From Candidatus Galligastranaerophilus intestinavium (lineage in GTDB: Bacteria; Cyanobacteriota; Vampirovibrionia; Gastranaerophilales; Gastranaerophilaceae), in the NCBI GenBank assembly GCA_018716625.1, contig DVJQ01000050.1, forward strand, positions 1-35,279: a stretch of DNA of 35,279 nt. Reading direction: 5' to 3'. The notes under the pieces are model-generated. The model was not told the origin of the DNA. It did no database searches and saw only the letters and a program-made list of their open reading frames with translations. Of this stretch, positions 16,025 to 35,279 are shown piece by piece. How positions within the stretch are numbered: the stretch's first letter is position 1; every line of letters starts with the position of its first letter. A program made the position numbers and the translations under genes.

Positions 16025-17164
16025 TTATTTAACATCAATATTTATTGCCGTAGGATTTAGTGCCAGCCATCTGAATGTTTCAGAGTCTTTTTGTGGCATT
16101 TCAAGAATATATACTCCGCCGTATTTGCCCCTTTGTGTGATCAAATACCCTTCGTCACAAAGTATTGAAATGGCATGTCTGATTGTGTTTGTGCTGACGT
16201 TTAATATTGTAGCAAGTTCTTTCATAGACGGTATTTTATCTCCGGCGCTATGGTTTTGTATTATATATTTTTTAAGCGCTTCAAGAGTTTTTTCCCAACT
16301 GTACAAGTAAGATTCTTGCAGTATGTTGTTTTGTGGTTTGCTCATAAAAAGAGATTTTTCTTCTCTTTCTTTTTGTTTTTTTATTTTTCTCGGGTCATTG
16401 ATATAAATTGTTCCGTAGCTACCTCTTCTTGAGAGAATAATGTTTTGTTCATTTAATATTTTTGCCGCCTCATTTACTGTTCTTATGCTTACATTGAACA
16501 ATTTTGCAAATTCTTCGTTTGGTAATATTTTGTCACCAACATTAAAATTTTTTATTATGTATTCTTTCATTTTTTGTACGGTTATTTTTGCAAGATTTGT
16601 TCTTTGTTGAATCTTTTCACAGTTTTCTTTATTAAAACTTTTTTTGTAAATTCTAATTACCTTTGCGCCACTTTGTGTAATTTGCTCTATTATTCCTTCT
16701 CTTAAAAGCACTTCTAGTGCAAGTCTTATGGTGTTTTCGCCAATGTTTAAAAGTTTTGAGAGCTCTTTTGTGCTTGGTAATGCGTTTTCAAGTTTTAATT
16801 TTGAATCAATAATATATTTTTTGATAAGTATTGTTGCTTCGTCTTTTTTTGAAAAAGTTTTTTCAAAAATTTTGTTTTGATTATGAGGGTCTTTTATTGC
16901 AGTGCCTACGGATTGACGTGATTCAAAATAGCCCATATCCTCAGCTTGTCTTATTGCATTTTGTATTGTTCCTATACTCACGCCAAGATATTTTGCAAGT
17001 TTTGATTTTTCGGGTAAAAAATCCCCATATTTTACATCTGAAGTGCTTATTGAGTGATTTATCCAGTCGATAAGCCACTTTAAAACAATTTTTTCTTTTG
17101 TCACCTTTGAATTTTTAAAATCCGGCGGAGGGAAATTTATTTGTGAAATTTGAATTTTTTTCAT
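16025..17164 (-). CDS. Regulator with four tandem GntR-type winged-helix domains
   Basis: A 379-residue protein in which the GntR N-terminal winged-helix module occurs four times, at about 25-92, 110-173, 193-256 and 290-354. Each copy shows the same order: a helix ending in YII-like residues, GDxLP/S, a helix-turn-helix with LAxxLxVSxxTVxxAIxxL, then a GxI/xxRxG wing. Examples are LAKYLGVSIGTIQNAIRQ, LSKLLNIGENTIRLALEV, FAKLFNVSIRTVNEAAKI and LATILNVSTNTIRHAISI. No FadR, HutC, MocR or other effector domain follows; only ~25 residues remain. GntR proteins normally have one such domain plus a ligand domain. It is divergent from rubrerythrin and upstream of the GT11 gene. AGGT precedes the ATG. 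Targets are unknown. Confidence 0.88.
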   Translation of the reverse strand: MKKIQISQINFPPPDFKNSKVTKEKIVLKWLIDWINHSISTSDVKYGDFLPEKSKLAKYLGVSIGTIQNAIRQAEDMGYFESRQSVGTAIKDPHNQNKIFEKTFSKKDEATILIKKYIIDSKLKLENALPSTKELSKLLNIGENTIRLALEVLLREGIIEQITQSGAKVIRIYKKSFNKENCEKIQQRTNLAKITVQKMKEYIIKNFNVGDKILPNEEFAKLFNVSIRTVNEAAKILNEQNIILSRRGSYGTIYINDPRKIKKQKEREEKSLFMSKPQNNILQESYLYSWEKTLEALKKYIIQNHSAGDKIPSMKELATILNVSTNTIRHAISILCDEGYLITQRGKYGGVYILEMPQKDSETFRWLALNPTAINIDVK

Positions 17165-26780: not shown

Positions 26781-27158
26781 ATGAACAAAGTTATTTATAC
26801 AAAAAATGCACCTGAGGCAATAGGCCCCTATTCTCAAGCCTATTTGTGCGGCAATATTTTGTACACATCGGGTCAAATTGCAATTAATCCCGAGAATAAT
26901 GAGTTTATTGGCGGAAATATCGAACATCAAACAAAAAGAGTTATTGAAAATTTAGCTGCCGTTTTAAGAGAGGCGGGTTTTGGTTTTGAACATGTTGTTA
27001 AAACAACCTGTTTTTTAAAAAATATGAGCGACTTTACGGCATTTAATCAAATCTATGGCGAGTACTTTACCTCTAAACCTGCTCGCTCTTGTGTTGCTGC
27101 ACAAGAGCTCCCCAAAGGAGCCCTTGTTGAAATTGAACTTGTGGCAATTAAGAATTAG
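26781..27158 (+). CDS. ridA: Enamine/imine deaminase RidA
   Basis: A 125-residue trimeric enzyme that hydrolyses reactive 2-aminoacrylate and 2-aminocrotonate released by PLP enzymes such as threonine dehydratase. Signature residues are Tyr17 (GPYSQA), Arg102 (PARSCV) and Glu117 (GALVEIE), equivalent to Tyr17, Arg105 and Glu120 of E. coli. AGGAG precedes the ATG. Its place directly after ilvA matches its role: it protects the cell from the intermediate made by its neighbour. Its stop overlaps that of the convergent argF by four bases. Confidence 0.96.
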   Translation: MNKVIYTKNAPEAIGPYSQAYLCGNILYTSGQIAINPENNEFIGGNIEHQTKRVIENLAAVLREAGFGFEHVVKTTCFLKNMSDFTAFNQIYGEYFTSKPARSCVAAQELPKGALVEIELVAIKN

Positions 27159-28084
27159 CCTATAATGCTTGCCAATATTGCTTTTTGAGCGTGCATTCTG
27201 TTTTCTGCCTGCTCGAAAATACTTTTTGCGTGTTTTTCAAGTACACTGTGGGTTATTTCTTCTTCTCTGTGAGCAGGTAAACAATGCAGAACAATGCAAT
27301 CATCAGCGGCATTGTCGCACAATTTATCATTAATTTGATAAGGTTTAAATATTTCCTTTCTGGCTTGAGCTTCGCTTTCTTGACCCATGCTTGCCCAAAC
27401 GTCCGTATAAATTATATTTGCGCCGCTAACAGCACTTATCGGGTCGTTGAGTATTTCAACCTTAGAGCCTGATTTTTTTGCTGTGTCTTTTGCAAAATTT
27501 AAAAATTTCTCCATAGGTTCATAACCCTTGGGACATGCAATTGTAATATCCATACCGACTAAAGCGCAACCGGCTAAAAGGCTGTTTGCAACATTGTTTC
27601 CATCGCCCACATAGGTAAGTTTCAGTCCTTCAAGCTTTGAAAAATGTTCTTTTATGGTAAGTAAATCTGCCATAATCTGGCATGGGTGACAATCATCGGT
27701 TAAACCGTTTATTGTTGGTACGGTTGAGTATTTTGCAAATTCTTCAACATCTCTGTGTGCAAAAGTTCTAATCATAACGCAATCCGCATAACGTGATAAA
27801 ACTCTTGCGGTATCTGCTATTGTTTCTCTTACACCAAGATTTATTTCATCCTGTTTTAGTGTCAGGGAATTTCCTCCAAGCTGCCTCATGCCTATTTCAA
27901 AACTTACTCTTGTTCTGAGGGAGGGTTTTGAAAATATTAAAGCTAAATTTTTATTTTGCAAAATCGGCAAAAAATGCCCGCTTTTTGTGTCTTTTTTAAT
28001 CTCTTGTGCAAAGTCCAAAAGATATAAAATTTCATCTTTTGTAAAATCAACTAAAGTCAAAAAGTCTTTGCCTTTTAAATTCAT
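27155..28084 (-). CDS. argF: Ornithine carbamoyltransferase
   Basis: It transfers the carbamoyl group from carbamoyl phosphate to ornithine, giving citrulline. The carbamoyl-phosphate site is SLRTR (55-59, the variant of STRTR found in many OTCs), with GGNSLTLK after it. The ornithine loop has DVWASMGQE, and HCLPAHR near residue 270 carries the conserved cysteine. At 309 residues it is complete. It is the last gene of argCJBDGHF and overlaps argH as ATGA, with AAGGAG just upstream. The carbamoyl phosphate synthetase genes are not in the window. Confidence 0.96.
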   Translation of the reverse strand: MNLKGKDFLTLVDFTKDEILYLLDFAQEIKKDTKSGHFLPILQNKNLALIFSKPSLRTRVSFEIGMRQLGGNSLTLKQDEINLGVRETIADTARVLSRYADCVMIRTFAHRDVEEFAKYSTVPTINGLTDDCHPCQIMADLLTIKEHFSKLEGLKLTYVGDGNNVANSLLAGCALVGMDITIACPKGYEPMEKFLNFAKDTAKKSGSKVEILNDPISAVSGANIIYTDVWASMGQESEAQARKEIFKPYQINDKLCDNAADDCIVLHCLPAHREEEITHSVLEKHAKSIFEQAENRMHAQKAILASIIG

Positions 28085-29469
28085 ATTTTCTCCTTTATAT
28101 ACTTTTCACAAATTTTAATGACATGTTCTGTCGCCTCGCTTGATGGCGCACCAAGAGTTTTTCTGTTTTCTACACAATTTTCAAGGGATATCGCACTGTA
28201 AATGTCCGCATCAAAAAGTTCGCAATGTCTTTTGAATTCATCGAGTGTTAATTCTTCTAAATTTTTTGAATTTTGTATACAATAAAACACAAGCTCGCCT
28301 GCTATTTTGTGTGTATCTCTAAAAGGCATACCTTTTTTAGTCAAATAATCCGCAACATCTGTTGCATTTAAAAACCCGTTTTTTGCAGACCTGAGCATTG
28401 CATTTTTATTTATGACAAGGGTGTCAAACATTTTTGTAAAAATTTCAAGGCACATCTTCACTGTGTCAACAGAGTCAAATAAAAACTCTTTATCTTCCTG
28501 CATATCTTTATTGTAAGCAAGAGGTAGAGCTTTCATAACGGTTAAAATGCCTGTTAAATTACCGTAAACCCTGCCGCATTTTCCCCTTACCAGCTCTGCT
28601 ATGTCGGGATTTTTTTTCTGGGGCATAATACTTGAGCCGGTTGAGTATCTGTCATCAAGTTTTACAAAGTTGTATTCTTGCGAGCACCAAAGTATTATCT
28701 CCTCGCAAAATCTGCTCAAATGCATCATAATAAAACTTATACAACTTATTGTTTCAATTACAAAATCTCTGTCTGAAACAGCGTCAATTGTATTTAGTGC
28801 GGGCGTTTCAAATCCTAAAAGCTCACAAGTGTAGTTTCTGTCTATGTTATATGTTGTGCCTGCAAGAGCACAAGCGCCTAAGGGGCAAGTGTTTGCTCTT
28901 TTGTAAGCATCCTCAAGTCTTGAAATATCTCTTTTAAACATTTCAAAGTAGGCTAAAATATGATGAGCAAAGGTAATCGGCTGAGCTTTTTGCAGGTGTG
29001 TAAAACCGGGCATTATTGTTTTTGTGTTTTCTTTTGCCTTGTTTAAAATTACCTTTTCAAGCTCTAAAAGCAGATTTTTAATATTGAGAAGTTCTTTTTT
29101 AACGTACATTTTAGTATCAAGTGCCACCTGATCATTTCTGCTTCTTGCACTGTGAAGTTTTTTGCCTGATTTACCTATTAAATCGGTCAAAAGCTTTTCT
29201 ATATTCATGTGAATATCTTCACAGGCTACGTCAAATTCAACCTTGCCGTTTTCAATATCTTTTAGGATTTTAGATAAACCCTCCTGAATGTTTTTTGAGT
29301 CAACAGTGGAAATTATCCCCTGTTTTTCAAGCATTTTTGTATGGGCAATAGAGCCTTCAATGTCTTCTCTGTAAAGTCTTTTATCAAACCTTACGGAAGA
29401 ATTAAAGTCGTCTGTTTTCTCGTCTGTTTGAGCGCAAAATCTTCCGCCCCAGAGTTTATCGTTAGCCAT
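28081..29469 (-). CDS. argH: Argininosuccinate lyase
   Basis: It cleaves argininosuccinate to arginine and fumarate, the last step of the pathway. The 462-residue protein has the fumarase/aspartase-superfamily signature [11 protein letters not shown] (278-288), whose mobile loop holds the catalytic serine, and [10 protein letters not shown] (155-164) with the conserved histidine. [10 protein letters not shown] (107-116) is also diagnostic. GGGAG lies upstream of the ATG. It overlaps argG by eight bases and argF by four, so the end of the operon is tightly coupled. Confidence 0.97.
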
Positions 29470-30673
29470 CTGTTTTATCTCCCAAAAGCATTGCTCTAGC
29501 TTTCAGCGGTAAGCCGAAAAGATTTATAAAGCCCTCTGCGTCTTTATGATTGTATAAATCACCTGTTGTAAAGCTTGCAAGGCTTTCGCTGTAAAGTGAA
29601 TAGGGCGAAGTTGCGCCAGCGTATATGATGTTACCTTTGTATAATTTTAATTTAACTTTACCTGTTACCGTTTTTTGTGTTTCATCTACAAAAGCGCTAA
29701 GGGCAGCCCTGAGCGGACTAAACCATAATCCGTTGTATACAAGCTTTGCAAATTCGTTTGCAATGTTTAATTTATATTGATAAGTATCTCTGTCCAGACA
29801 TAAATGCTCAAGATACTCGTGTGCTTGGTATAGCAGTGTTCCTCCGGGGGTTTCGTAAACTCCTCTTGATTTCATTCCGACAAGTCTGTTTTCAACAATG
29901 TCTGCTATGCCTATGCCGTTTTCACCCGCTAATTTGTTTGCGGTTTCAAGGAGTTCTTTTGCACTTGATTTTTTGCCGTTAATTGCAATTGGGATACCTT
30001 TTTCAAATTCAATTTCAACATAAGTATCCTTATCCGGTGCTTTCTGCGGAGTTACCGACATTTGAAGAAGTTTATCAAAATTAGGTTCAAGCGCGGGATC
30101 TTCAAGCTCTAATCCTTCATGGCTTAAATGCCACAGGTTTTTATCTCTTGAATAAGAGTCATCTTTTTTCATAGGTACTTCAATGCCTCTTTTTTCAAGA
30201 TATTCAATCTCATCTTCTCTTGATTTTATCTCCCATATTCTCCAAGGGGCAATGATTTTAAGTTCAGGTGCAAGCGCTTTTATTGCAAGCTCAAATCTTA
30301 CCTGATCGTTACCTTTGCCTGTTGCACCATGGCAAATTGCAACAGCACCTTCTTTTTTTGCTATATCTACAAGGCATTTGCCTATTATGGGTCTTGCAAT
30401 AGATGTACCCAAGAGATATTTGCTTTCATACACAGCACCTGCCTTTAGTGTCGGCCAAGCATACTGTTGCAAAAATTCTTCCGTAACATCGAGCAAATAA
30501 AACTTGCTCGCACCTGTTTTAAGAGCTTTTTGCTCAAGCCCGTCGGTTTCTTTTCCTTGTCCTACGTCAATGCACACTGCAATAATGTCATAGTCGTAAG
30601 TTTCTTTTAACCAAGGTATTAAGACGGTGGTGTCTAATCCGCCCGAGTACGCCAAAATAACTTTTTCTTTCAT
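29462..30673 (-). CDS. argG: Argininosuccinate synthase
   Basis: It joins citrulline and aspartate using ATP, giving argininosuccinate. The N-type ATP pyrophosphatase P-loop is AYSGGLDTT (8-16), and [13 protein letters not shown] carries the citrulline/aspartate-binding residues. The length of 403 residues is standard. AAGGAG is well placed before the ATG, and the gap to argD is a single base. The position of argG and argH before argF, rather than in a separate unit, puts all steps from glutamate to arginine on one transcript. Confidence 0.97.
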
Positions 30674-30674
30674 A

Positions 30675-31850
30675 TTATTCTCCTTTTATGTTTTTAAAAA
30701 CTTTTTCTAAAATTAAAAATCCTTCATCTGCCACCTTTTTGTCGATAATTAAAGGCGGCACAAATCGAACAACATTTGAGCCTGCACTCAGTATTAAAAG
30801 CCCCTCACTAAAGGCCTTGTTTGCAATTTCTTTTACAGATGTATCAAGCTCTATTCCGAGCATTAAACCAAGACCTCTTACATCTTTTATAAAAGAATAT
30901 TTTTCTTTCAATTTGTTTAATTTTTCGAAAAAATAAGCACTCATTTGCGCTACGTTTTCAAGTAAATTTGTATTTAGAATTTCATCAACAACAACATTGG
31001 CGCAAGCGCACGCCAGCAGGTTGCCGCCAAAAGTGCTTGCATGGTCGCCAATACCAAAGGATGAGGCGAATTTATCATTTGCAAGCATTGCTCCCATCGG
31101 GATACCGCCGCCAATAGCTTTTGCAAGAGTAACGATATCAGGGTTAATATTATAAACCTGATGAGCAAAAAGCTTGCCGCATCTGCCCATGCCGCACTGA
31201 ACTTCATCAAAGATAAGAGCAATGTTGTTTTCTGTGCAAATTTTTCTAACTTCTTTTAAAAACTCCTCTTTTGCGGGAATTATACCCCCTTCGCCCTGAA
31301 TAGGCTCAAGAAATATCGCGCATACATTTTTATCAAGACATTCTTTAAGCGAATTTATATCGTTGTATGCGGCAAATTTTACCTCACTCATAAGCGGAGT
31401 GAAATTTTTTTGGTATTTATCCTGACCCGTCAAGCTAAGAGCTCCTATTGTTCTTCCATGGAAAGAATTTTTAAAGGCAATAAATTTTGTGCAATTGTCA
31501 CCTTTATTTTTTTTGGCATAAATTTTTGCAAGTTTTAATGCCGCCTCGTTTGCCTCTGCGCCACTGTTACAGAAAAATGCTTTATCAAAAGAGCTGTTGT
31601 TGCAGAGTTTTTGCGCAAGCTCTATTTGAGGTTCACTCCAATATAAGTTTGAACAGTGTAAAAGTTTTTTAGATTGGTTTAAAATTGTGTTCTCGATTTT
31701 TTTGCAGCCGTAGCCAAGGGAGTTAACGGCAATTCCTGAGGCAAAATCGATATATTTTTTGCCGTTTGTGTCATACAAAAAACAACCTTTTCCATAGTCA
31801 AATGTGACATCAAATCTTGAGTATGTGTTCATAATAAATTTTTTGTTCAT
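30675..31850 (-). CDS. argD: Acetylornithine aminotransferase
   Basis: A class-III PLP aminotransferase (391 residues) that converts N-acetylglutamate semialdehyde to N-acetylornithine. The PLP lysine is Lys244 in [20 protein letters not shown] (215-223) holds the PLP pyridine ring, and [15 protein letters not shown] (95-109) binds its phosphate. Enzymes of this family can also act in lysine synthesis, but the operon places it in the arginine pathway. Its ATG overlaps the argB stop by one base. Confidence 0.95.
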
Positions 31851-32710
31851 TACTTTTCCACCATTGTCCCTATTCCATCGTGCGTAAAAATTTCAAGCAG
31901 CAGTGAATGTTCCAGTCTGCCATCCAGTATATGCACACTTTCAACGCCGTTTTCAATTGCAAATTTACAACTTTGTACTTTTGGAATCATCCCGCCTTCT
32001 ATAATTTTTTCATCAATATATTTTTGAATTTCCGACACTTTAAGTGTTGAAATAACTGAAGCGGGATCAAATTTATCTCTCATAACACCTTCGATATCGG
32101 TTAAAAAGACGAGCTTTTGCGCCTTTAGTGCGCATGCTGTTGCAACCGCTGCATAGTCAGCATTAATATTATAAATATTTCCGTCTTTGTCTTTTGAAAC
32201 CGGTGCAATAATAGGAATGTAAGAGTTTTCAATAAGGACATTTAGGATTTTTTCATTTACTTTTGTGACTTCGCCAATAAAACCTAAGTCCTTGCCGTTG
32301 GGAAAGATTTTTTGCACTTCAAATAAATTTGTATCGCACCCTGATAAGCCAAGTGCCTCAACTCCACAGTTTTGAATTGCATGTACTATTTTTTTGTTAA
32401 CGCTGGCGCCAAGCACCATTTCAACTACTTGTGCCGTTTTTTTATCTGTTTTTCTGAGTCCGTCGACAAATTCCGTTTGAATATTCATATCTTTTAGCGT
32501 TTGGGTTATTTCAACCCCTCCGCCATGCACTATGACAGGCTTTATGCCTATGTATTTCATAAGTGCAATATCTTCCGTTATTGTTTTAAATACATTTTCG
32601 TCTTTAAGTGCTTCACCGCCTAATTTTACAACTACGGTTTTGCCCGTAAATTCTTTTATGTAAGGCAGTGATTCGGTTAAAATTCTTACTTTTTGTACAA
32701 ATTCTTTCAT
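31850..32710 (-). CDS. argB: Acetylglutamate kinase, probably arginine-sensitive
   Basis: It phosphorylates N-acetylglutamate, the second and usually controlled step. The amino-acid-kinase fold is shown by VVVKLGGEAL (about 26-35), VHGGGVEI and the GGMIPKV block. At 286 residues it carries an N-terminal helix (VRILTESLPYIKEFTGK) before the first strand, and ends in the HSLLLEIFTHDGIGTMV block. Both are features of hexameric arginine-inhibited kinases (Thermotoga, Pseudomonas, cyanobacteria) and are absent in the E. coli form. Feedback inhibition by arginine is therefore likely, fitting the ArgJ-type cyclic pathway. A PII partner is possible but not seen. GAGGA precedes the ATG. Confidence 0.95.
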   Translation of the reverse strand: MKEFVQKVRILTESLPYIKEFTGKTVVVKLGGEALKDENVFKTITEDIALMKYIGIKPVIVHGGGVEITQTLKDMNIQTEFVDGLRKTDKKTAQVVEMVLGASVNKKIVHAIQNCGVEALGLSGCDTNLFEVQKIFPNGKDLGFIGEVTKVNEKILNVLIENSYIPIIAPVSKDKDGNIYNINADYAAVATACALKAQKLVFLTDIEGVMRDKFDPASVISTLKVSEIQKYIDEKIIEGGMIPKVQSCKFAIENGVESVHILDGRLEHSLLLEIFTHDGIGTMVEK

Positions 32711-32721
32711 TATATCCTCGT

Positions 32722-33963
32722 CTATGTTCTATACTCGCCGTTTATTCTTACGTATTCGTAACTCAAATCGCAACCCCAAGCTGTCGCTTTTGAATTGCCC
32801 TCATTGAGATGCACATTAACGGTTATTTCTTTGTTTTTTAAAATTTCTTGTGCTGTTTCTTCACAAAAATCAAGAGGCGTGCCGTTTTCCATTAAATAAA
32901 TCGACTTGTCGCCACAGCTAAACTCTATTGAAACCCTTTCGGGGTCAAATTTTACTCCGCTATAGCCTAGTGCCGCAAGAATTCTGCCCCAGTTTGCATC
33001 TTCGCCGAAAAATGCCGTTTTTACAAGATTTGATGTAATTACCGATTTTGCAAGAATTTTTGCACTGTTTTCGTCTTTTGCGCCAAAAACATTTATTTCA
33101 AGAAATTTTGTTGCCCCTTCTCCATCCAGTACGATTTGTTTTGCAAGGTGTTTGTTTACCATATCAAGAGCTTGGGCAAATGTTTTATAATCATCCGTTT
33201 CGCTCTCTATAGGTTTATTTTTGGCACAGCCGTTTGCAAGCACAAGCACCATATCGTTTGTTGACGTGTCACCGTCAACGGAAATCATGTTGTAAGTGTT
33301 TTTTGTGCTGTCAGAGAGTGCTTTTTGTAACATTTCTTTTGATATAACGGCGTCAGTTGTCACAAATCCCAGCATTGTACCCATGTTGGGGTGAATCATG
33401 CCAGAGCCTTTTGCAATTGCGCCTATTTTTACGGTCTTTCCGCTTATTTCAAATTCATAAGCAATACCTTTTACAAAAGTGTCTGTCGTCATAATCCCTT
33501 CTGCAGCGTTCAGGGCAGCTTGTTCGTTGTTACCGATTTGTGTTGCTATTTCTTCTATCCCGTCTAAAATTTTATCCATCTGCAATTGCACGCCTATAAC
33601 ACCTGTTGAAGCCACAAGGACACTTCTTTGCGGCAAATTAAAAACTTTTTGAGTTTTTTCTATCATCTCCCAGGCATTTGTAAGCCCTTTAGCACCTGTG
33701 CATGCGTTTGCATTACCGCTGTTTATGATTATTGCATTTATCGGTGTACCTTTTTCTACAATGTCTTTTGTAACAAGCAGGGGCGCTGCTTTTACAACAT
33801 TTGTTGTATAAACACCTGCGCTAATTGCGGCATTTTTTGTATATATAAGTGCTAAATCCTTTCTTCTTCTTTTAACACCGGTTCTTATTCCTGCTGCCTC
33901 AAAGCCCAAGGGGGCAATAATTGCGCCGTTTATTTTTTTAATTTTTTCTTTTGTACCAAACAT
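32722..33963 (-). CDS. argJ: Glutamate N-acetyltransferase (ornithine acetyltransferase)
   Basis: It transfers the acetyl group from N-acetylornithine back to glutamate, so acetyl groups are recycled; in bifunctional members it also makes acetylglutamate from acetyl-CoA. The precursor cleaves itself before a conserved threonine, here Thr196 in HPNMGTMLGF, to give alpha and beta chains. STGVIGVQL (119-127) is part of the active site. The length of 413 residues is normal. AAGGAG is present. The gene replaces argA and argE of the linear pathway, neither of which is in the window. Whether it is mono- or bifunctional cannot be told. Confidence 0.96.
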   Translation of the reverse strand: MFGTKEKIKKINGAIIAPLGFEAAGIRTGVKRRRKDLALIYTKNAAISAGVYTTNVVKAAPLLVTKDIVEKGTPINAIIINSGNANACTGAKGLTNAWEMIEKTQKVFNLPQRSVLVASTGVIGVQLQMDKILDGIEEIATQIGNNEQAALNAAEGIMTTDTFVKGIAYEFEISGKTVKIGAIAKGSGMIHPNMGTMLGFVTTDAVISKEMLQKALSDSTKNTYNMISVDGDTSTNDMVLVLANGCAKNKPIESETDDYKTFAQALDMVNKHLAKQIVLDGEGATKFLEINVFGAKDENSAKILAKSVITSNLVKTAFFGEDANWGRILAALGYSGVKFDPERVSIEFSCGDKSIYLMENGTPLDFCEETAQEILKNKEITVNVHLNEGNSKATAWGCDLSYEYVRINGEYRT

Positions 33964-33976
33964 TTTTTCTCCTTAT

Positions 33977-35011
33977 TTATGGAAATATTGCTATATTTTG
34001 CAGTGCTGTTTTTTCGTTTAAATTAAACATAATGTTCATATTTTGAACTGCTTGCCCCGAGGCTCCTTTGTATAGATTATCTATTGCGCTAAAGACCATT
34101 ATTCTTTTTGTTCGTGTGTCTTTAAAAATACTTATGTCGCAATAGTTTGTGCCTTTTGTCCATCGTGTTTGCGCTTCTTCATCCAAAAGCCTTATAAAGG
34201 GTTTATCCTTGTAATATTTTTTATAAATTTCTTTTATGTCGTTTAATTCAAAATCTTTATTTGGTTTTAGGTAAACACTTGCTAAAATTCCCCTGTTCAT
34301 GGGTATTAAGTGCGGTGTAAAGTTTATAAGTACATTTTGTTTTGAAATGTCGCCAAGTATTTGCTCAATTTCGGGGGTGTGTCTGTGGGAGGCAACTTTA
34401 TAGGGTTTAATTGTTTCGTTACATTCGCAAAAGAGTGTGTCAATGTTTAGTCCTCTGCCTGCACCTGTCACACCTGATTTTGCATCAATTATTATTTCAT
34501 CGGGGTAAATAATACCTTCTTTTAAAAGCGGTGCAACGGCAAGGATAGAGGCGGTTGCGTAGCAGCCCGGGTTTGCAACAAGTCTTGCGTGTTTAATTTT
34601 TTCAAAATTCCACTCAGGCAGACCGTATACGGCTTCATTTAAAAGGTTTTGCCCAAAGTGTTCGGTTTTATACCATTTTTCATAGGTTTCTTTATTGTTT
34701 AATCTAAAATCCGCCCCTAAGTCTATTACTTTTGTATTGTTTAATATATCCTCATTAATTTTTGCGCTTGCAATTCCATGGGGTAGGGCAAGGAAGATAA
34801 CATCTGCTTTTTTGGAAATTTCTTCAATATTTTCTGTTTCAAGTTCGATATCTAAAACCCCTTTGAAATTTTTATAAATATCGGAAAATAGTTGTCCGCA
34901 GTAGCTTTTGCTCACTAAAGAAACAATTTCGACATTTTTGTGATGTGCAAGTATTGCTGCAAGAACTGCTCCTGAGTAACCTGTTGCCCCTATTATCGCT
35001 GCTTTTATCAT
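33977..35011 (-). CDS. argC: N-acetyl-gamma-glutamyl-phosphate reductase
   Basis: It reduces N-acetylglutamyl phosphate to the semialdehyde with NADPH. The NADP site is GATGYSG (9-14 region), the catalytic cysteine is Cys150 in VANPGCYATA, and SGVTGAGRG and HRHTPEIEQ are also conserved. At 344 residues it is full length. It is the first gene of the operon. AAAGG lies six bases before its ATG and only ~10 bases after the terminator hairpin, so read-through of that terminator decides expression of the whole operon. Confidence 0.97.
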   Translation of the reverse strand: MIKAAIIGATGYSGAVLAAILAHHKNVEIVSLVSKSYCGQLFSDIYKNFKGVLDIELETENIEEISKKADVIFLALPHGIASAKINEDILNNTKVIDLGADFRLNNKETYEKWYKTEHFGQNLLNEAVYGLPEWNFEKIKHARLVANPGCYATASILAVAPLLKEGIIYPDEIIIDAKSGVTGAGRGLNIDTLFCECNETIKPYKVASHRHTPEIEQILGDISKQNVLINFTPHLIPMNRGILASVYLKPNKDFELNDIKEIYKKYYKDKPFIRLLDEEAQTRWTKGTNYCDISIFKDTRTKRIMVFSAIDNLYKGASGQAVQNMNIMFNLNEKTALQNIAIFP

Positions 35012-35030: not shown

Positions 35031-35074
35031 AAAAAAGCCTCCCTTTTTAAGGTTTTGTCCTTTAAGGGAGGCTT
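35031..35074 (-). terminator. Intrinsic terminator (attenuator) before argC
   Basis: On the minus strand AAGCCTCCCTT (35074-35064) pairs perfectly over 11 bp with AAGGGAGGCTT (35045-35035); an inner AAGG/CCTT extension closes the ACAAAA loop. A run of six U (35036-35031) follows. The U-run exists only in the minus direction, so the terminator acts on transcripts heading into argC, between the leader ORF and the operon. Confidence 0.9.
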
Positions 35075-35103
35075 AATAAATTTATCTTAGAAATTTACAC
35101 ACT

Positions 35104-35136
35104 GACAAAACTTAATAAGACTCCAATCTTATTAAG
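35104..35136 (-). promoter_or_regulatory. Leader hairpin and antiterminator segments of the arg attenuator
   Basis: On the minus strand, segment 1 CTTAATAAGA (35136-35127) and segment 2 TCTTATTAAG (35120-35111) form a perfect 10-bp hairpin overlapping the last codons of the leader ORF. Segment 2 runs on as GTTTTGTC (35111-35104). This is complementary to GACAAAAC in the terminator loop (35059-35052), and TTAAG/CTTAA extends the pairing with one bulged base. Segment 1 can also pair as GCTTAATAA (35137-35129) with TTATTAAGC (35079-35071), which overlaps the terminator's 5' arm. These mutually exclusive pairings are the expected switch of an attenuator. Confidence 0.7.
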
Positions 35137-35174
35137 CGTCGGCGGATAAATCTAACTTGTTGGTTTAATTTCAT
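35112..35174 (-). CDS. Arginine-rich leader peptide of the arg operon
   Basis: A 20-codon ORF with ATG at 35174, AGAGG six bases upstream, and a TAA stop at 35114-35112. Five of its 20 codons are arginine: codon 8 (AGA), 11-13 (CGC, CGA, CGC) and 16 (AGA); the core reads RFIRRRLIR. It lies between a strong promoter and a terminator in front of seven arginine genes, and its 3' end forms one arm of a hairpin. The arrangement matches leader peptides such as TrpL and HisL, in which ribosome stalling at codons for the end product prevents termination. The peptide itself probably has no other role. It is too short for routine gene callers. Confidence 0.85.
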   Translation of the reverse strand: MKLNQQVRFIRRRLIRLESY

Positions 35175-35196
35175 TTTTTTCCTCTTGTTTTGATTT

Positions 35197-35225
35197 ATTA
35201 GAACATTTTTTTTACTGCTTGTCAA
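35197..35225 (-). promoter_or_regulatory. arg operon promoter
   Basis: On the minus strand a consensus TTGACA (35225-35220), a 17-base spacer and TCTAAT (35202-35197). Transcription would start near 35190, five bases before the leader-peptide Shine-Dalgarno. No ArgR-box pair is recognisable over it. Confidence 0.8.
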
Positions 35226-35252: not shown

Positions 35253-35279
35253 ATGTAAAAATTACTTAATAAATTATCA

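Follow-up and report, generated by a model that had tools for sequence, protein, structure and literature searches.

Transcription attenuators controlled by leader peptides are known from the trp, his, leu, thr, phe, and ilv operons of Proteobacteria and Actinobacteria, and the arginine operons of bacteria are usually controlled by the ArgR repressor, which is a textbook case. T-boxes bind uncharged tRNA directly and involve no leader peptide. In fungi, the arginine attenuator peptide encoded by the arg-2/CPA1 uORF acts by nascent-peptide arrest with arginine, at the translational level. Arginine-specific T-boxes exist (cited in PMC1262725), and the same paper found no conserved RNA structure upstream of the arginine operons of Actinobacteria; the main text of a broad attenuator survey does not mention arginine (PMC2965389). 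In the speF leader of Salmonella, consecutive Arg codons (12 and 13) of orf34 sense arginine by ribosome pausing, the output of which involves Rho termination, RNase G decay, and the speF ribosome-binding site, with no intrinsic terminator, and the target is ornithine decarboxylase, an enzyme of polyamine synthesis (PMC6386406). The open literature searched yielded no description of a leader peptide that controls arginine biosynthesis by attenuation.

Gastranaerophilales are non-photosynthetic relatives of cyanobacteria. The window, i.e., the whole stretch of 35,279 nucleotides analyzed here, is one contig of a 1.76-Mb MAG of this order, and upstream of its argCJBDGHF genes lies what we take, with a probability of about 0.88, to be a classical ribosome-mediated transcription attenuator sensing charged tRNA-Arg. 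Like the trp, his, leu, thr, phe, and ilv attenuators, it combines a short ORF rich in codons for the end product, a protector hairpin (1:2), an alternative pairing (2:3) using the 5' arm of the terminator, an intrinsic terminator, and a biosynthetic operon downstream; unlike them, it carries arginine codons and occurs in a non-photosynthetic member of the Cyanobacteriota from which the usual repressor of the pathway is missing. TrpE was not found, and hence no trp attenuator was available for comparison. The short leader ORF with consecutive Arg codons recalls orf34 of speF, but here an intrinsic terminator and argC follow, and the combination of an ornithine decarboxylase gene downstream with no intrinsic terminator was not found in the window. 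As in the case of arginine T-boxes, the charging of tRNA-Arg would be coupled to transcription attenuation of arginine genes, but a leader peptide is present here, and none of the Rfam 15 covariance models, T-box included, matched the window at the gathering score. The pathway and the logic of the arginine response are those of ArgR and the ARG box, whereas ArgR is a protein repressor acting on DNA, its domain (PF01316) is not encoded in the genome, and it was not found in the leader-bearing genomes tested. The fungal arg-2/CPA1 uORF is likewise an arginine-responsive ORF (a property that is putative here) preceding an arginine biosynthetic gene, but it is eukaryotic and translational and has no transcription terminator.

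Table 1. Features of the arginine operon leader in the window (paired cells refer to the genus alignment).
Feature	Position	Strand	Basis or remark
Promoter-like site, sigma-70-like, TTGACA-17-TCTAAT with TG (extended -10)	35197..35225	-	Sequence reading
TTGACA box, 17-nt gap, TCTAAT box	35225-35220 and 35202-35197	-	Sequence reading
Shine-Dalgarno AGAGGA	35185-35180	-	Sequence reading
Leader ORF MKLNQQVRFIRRRLIRLESY and TAA stop, ATG at 35174	35112..35174	-	Length and frame constant genus-wide
Putative regulatory codons 11-13, CGC CGA CGC	35136..35144	-	Codon 12 alternates CGA/CGC in relatives
Segment 1 (CTTAATAAGA), 5' arm of the protector hairpin	35127..35136	-	100% of cells paired in the genus
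Segment 2 (GGAGTCTTATTAAGTTT), 5' half of the proposed antiterminator; in hairpin 1:2 it supplies the loop and the 3' arm	35108..35124	-	
Segment 3 (AAATTTATTAAGCCTCC), 3' half of the proposed antiterminator, made up of the spacer and the 5' arm of the terminator	35067..35083	-	95.2% of cells paired with segment 2
Predicted intrinsic terminator (35074-35035) and T-run	35031..35074	-	-21.6 kcal/mol; 91% of cells paired
argC-argJ-argB-argD-argG-argH-argF operon	27155..35011	-	NCBIfam matches above curated cut-offs

A first-pass annotation had described the promoter, an AGAGG motif, a 20-codon ORF with five Arg codons (three of them consecutive), a perfect 10-bp hairpin on the 3' end of this ORF, and a strong terminator about 20 bases before argC; all these elements were confirmed on the minus strand (Table 1), the hairpin being formed by the last codons of the leader (35136-35127 / 35120-35111), and NCBIfam bore out the identity of the operon genes. 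An equivalent TTGACA-17-TGTAAT site is present in relatives of the window leader; the promoter consensus scan omits the window site, since it demands A at base 2 of the -10 box. The terminator, which ends about 20 nt 5' of the argC start, is the only strong terminator-like site on the minus strand within the window. The fold of the full leader is more stable than that of shuffled sequences (z -4.6; 0/200 shuffles equally good). Segment 2 starts 14 nt downstream of the first base of the last tandem Arg codon, and the stop codon lies within it. The window contains an ORF with clustered Arg codons between promoter and operon, an intrinsic terminator before the first gene, and 1:2, 2:3, and 3:4 pairings which are mutually exclusive and conserved in relatives.

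The Arg codons of the leader are AGA at codons 8 and 16 and the CGN triplet at codons 11-13. Given the codon usage of the window, at least five Arg residues in the 19 codons after the start have a probability of 2.8e-4, and RRR occurs only once in the 10,837 codons of the window genes. Since the regulatory codons belong to CGN, the minority box, despite AGA being the commonest Arg codon in the window genes (54%), this choice suggests sensing through CGN-reading tRNA-Arg, and might make it possible to test the isoacceptor-choice theory of attenuation (PMC1183508).

Under the proposed mechanism, when arginine is scarce, the ribosome would stall at codons 11-13 and cover segment 1; segment 2 would then pair with segment 3, including the 5' arm of the terminator, and RNA polymerase would read into argCJBDGHF. 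When arginine is plentiful, the ribosome would reach the stop codon inside segment 2 and mask this segment, so that the terminator would form. If the leader is not translated, hairpin 1:2 and the terminator would form together. Stalling, termination, read-through, and the dependence on charged tRNA-Arg are what we infer from this architecture.

The comparison sequences were mainly MAGs. The core CGCCGNCGCTTAATAAGANNNGAGTCTTATTA is present as a single copy about 125 nt upstream of argC in the 11 genomes of the genus carrying argC, and in 0/4 of the genus genomes without argC. The promoter-leader-terminator order is kept in the same 11/11 genomes. The leader ORF is open and exactly 20 codons long in all the genus sequences; codons 2-10 are variable, and the last ten residues, RRRLIRxESY, are invariant. 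Hairpin 1:2 is fully paired in the genus alignment, and three terminator pairs show changes on both sides. The 2:3 helix is nearly invariant and shows no covariation within the genus; because it varies so little there, covariation comes only from comparisons between lineages. The 2:3 pairing accounts for the near invariance, in the genus, of the GGAG hairpin loop and of the non-coding spacer (AUAAAUUU).

Beyond the genus, unalignable leaders with tandem CGN Arg codons and a terminator occur in further genera and families of the order and in f8, a second family of the class. These divergent leaders stand at the head of the arg operon, irrespective of whether it opens with argC or argF: the operon order is argF-G-H-C in genera g9, g48, g44, and g19 and in family f7, where the leader stands before argF, and the leader precedes argC in families f2 and f4; no leader was found before argF in f2, f3, and f4. 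In f8, the leaders before argC contain RRR or RRRR and are followed by a G+C-rich terminator. The C-termini of the leader peptides (..QLRRSCSNQVLNRVI, ..AQIRRQDRNF, ..ELRRRNLF, ..QLRRSIL, ..ELRRQGLR, and ..NRTRRCTIILQEDC) have in common only tandem or near-tandem Arg codons, which are nearly always CGN. A weak [QE][LI]RR pattern was observed just before and at the tandem Arg codons, usually codons 11-13 (L125-L131 and L166-L171, leaders before argF); its recurrence in leaders of several genera that are otherwise unalignable might reflect common descent or a role of the peptide. In a further f8 genus, a candidate Arg-rich leader (L183, ..NARSRRRAVKRLGKELRRLT) with the terminator AAAGCCCCGAGTGATTACTCGGGGCTTTTT was observed upstream of argC.

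These C-termini bear on whether the peptide itself might be the sensor, i.e., whether the nascent chain in the exit tunnel, as in TnaC and SpeFL, might respond to free arginine, ornithine, or another ligand rather than the ribosome responding to uncharged tRNA-Arg. This we consider improbable: the invariance of RRRLIRxESY in the genus and the weak [QE][LI]RR pattern of other genera would be in keeping with it, but the invariant residues overlap segments 1 and 2, which are already constrained by RNA pairing, and in other genera the C-termini are unrelated while the tandem Arg codons persist. A macrolide-type (+x+) arrest leader was also considered and rejected: RRR would fit, but in each lineage the leader is followed by arg genes.

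Another form of ribosome-mediated attenuation differs from the proposed one only in its antiterminator. According to the first-pass annotation, the end of the leader (TTAAG-TTTTGTC) pairs with the loop and 3' flank of the terminator (GACAAAAC-C-TTAA). This pairing is present in the window, as a possible helix of 12 pairs with one bulge, but it was kept in only 55.7% of the cells of the genus alignment, which is no better than the slid controls, the terminator loop sequence differs in nearly all the relatives, and the G+C-rich arms of the terminator would be left free. For the mechanism class proposed at that stage, leader-peptide attenuation of the arg operon, the comparisons at the genus, order, and class levels provide strong support, whereas the antiterminator was rejected in favor of the 2:3 pairing (95.2% of cells), and we hold its operation to be very unlikely. 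In the 2:3 helix, GGAG-U-CUUA-U-UAAGUUU(AUUU) of segment 2 pairs with (AGAU)AAAUUUA-U-UAAG-C-CUCC of segment 3, so that the terminator's 5' arm is engaged; the helix is mutually exclusive with both hairpin 1:2 and the terminator. When segment 1 is covered, the predicted fold of the nascent window RNA is 2:3, while the completed RNA favors the terminator, as would be expected of a kinetic switch. Duplex tests with the terminator arm alone gave weak results because the spacer half of segment 3 was omitted, and they were repeated with this half included.

Each of the divergent leaders can form a predicted antiterminator of its own. Because the leader RNAs could not be aligned, the segment around the stop codon was tested against its own terminator region and against permuted partners: in 14 leaders, four of which are from one genus and yet not alignable, the sum was -273.7 kcal/mol with the own terminators and -155.2 +/- 15.2 kcal/mol with permuted ones (permutation z -7.8, p about 1e-5). 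The 1:2 partner overlaps or adjoins the Arg codons across the lineages, L095 being the weakest case; in the search for segment 2, the lower bound of +10 was set by the search window, so that independent information comes here from the upstream partners and the stop positions alone. The antiterminators of L095, L097, L127, L130, and L131 are not significant individually, the stop codon of L093 lies well beyond segment 2, and the U-tracts of L130 and L167 are poor.

A search for ArgR (PF01316), positive in 9/14 named genomes as a control, gave no match in the genome of the window or in any of the 38 genomes of the first set, almost all of them members of the order. In f8, the 12 leader-bearing genomes (g80, g89, and g105) have no ArgR and eight leaderless genomes (g90, g96, g94, and g107) have it; the other four have neither by the criteria used, one of them being that with the candidate leader L183. 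ArgR was found in none of the leader-bearing genomes tested. This distribution is a pattern rather than a test, since genomes of the same genus are not independent. In leaderless f8 genera, ArgR genes were observed within about 0.5 to 4 kb of argC (G459, G460, G473, and G490, argC contigs), so that repressor and attenuator seem to alternate at the same locus. In f3 and G037 (L092, L096, L099-L107, and L140-L148), argC and argF are present with neither an Arg leader nor ArgR. The absence of ArgR from the own genome and from related genomes of the order also speaks against the idea that an arginine repressor uses the inverted repeat as its operator on the DNA, the ORF and the terminator being incidental: the A+T-rich palindrome loosely resembles an ARG box, but it lies inside a conserved ORF downstream of the promoter, and in other lineages the logic of the RNA pairings persists in the absence of this palindrome sequence, which leaves this reading with next to no likelihood.

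The scan for a leader plus a terminator recovered 20/24 leaders and matched none of 270 shuffled leaders and none of the 11 loci of the order judged negative by eye. Outside the class, seven of 69 argC loci matched, all with the same Arg-rich tail ..RKARRRKQFSKR, which we take to be the end of ribosomal protein S9; these matches were rejected, and no true leader was found among the 69 loci. That a chance ORF lies between the promoter and argC, the terminator belonging to an upstream gene out of view beyond the end of the window at 35279, is scarcely credible given the 11/11 genus genomes with the same order, the counterparts in other families, and the 0/270 shuffled controls.

The ribosome-mediated attenuator sensing charged tRNA-Arg is probably the first case of a biosynthetic operon under an arginine-specific leader-peptide attenuator; judging from the genomes compared, it would be spread over five or more families of the non-photosynthetic class of Cyanobacteriota, follow the start of the operon when the gene order changes, keep its logic through a complete turnover of the RNA sequence, and stand where ArgR is missing, one family having ArgR-only and leader-only genera. 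The leader apparently substitutes for the usual arginine repressor protein. If the mechanism is correct, the reading of Arg codons is what controls arginine synthesis in a bacterial lineage, and the system exemplifies how RNA-based and repressor-based control can take each other's place at one set of genes.

Elsewhere in the window, a 379-residue protein (16025-17164, minus strand) shows several GntR-type winged-helix matches along its length, with no ligand domain among its Pfam matches. One genome (G175; L113, L149, and L156) contains a fragment of argC and a stretch of argF interrupted by several in-frame stops, as if the arginine pathway were decaying.
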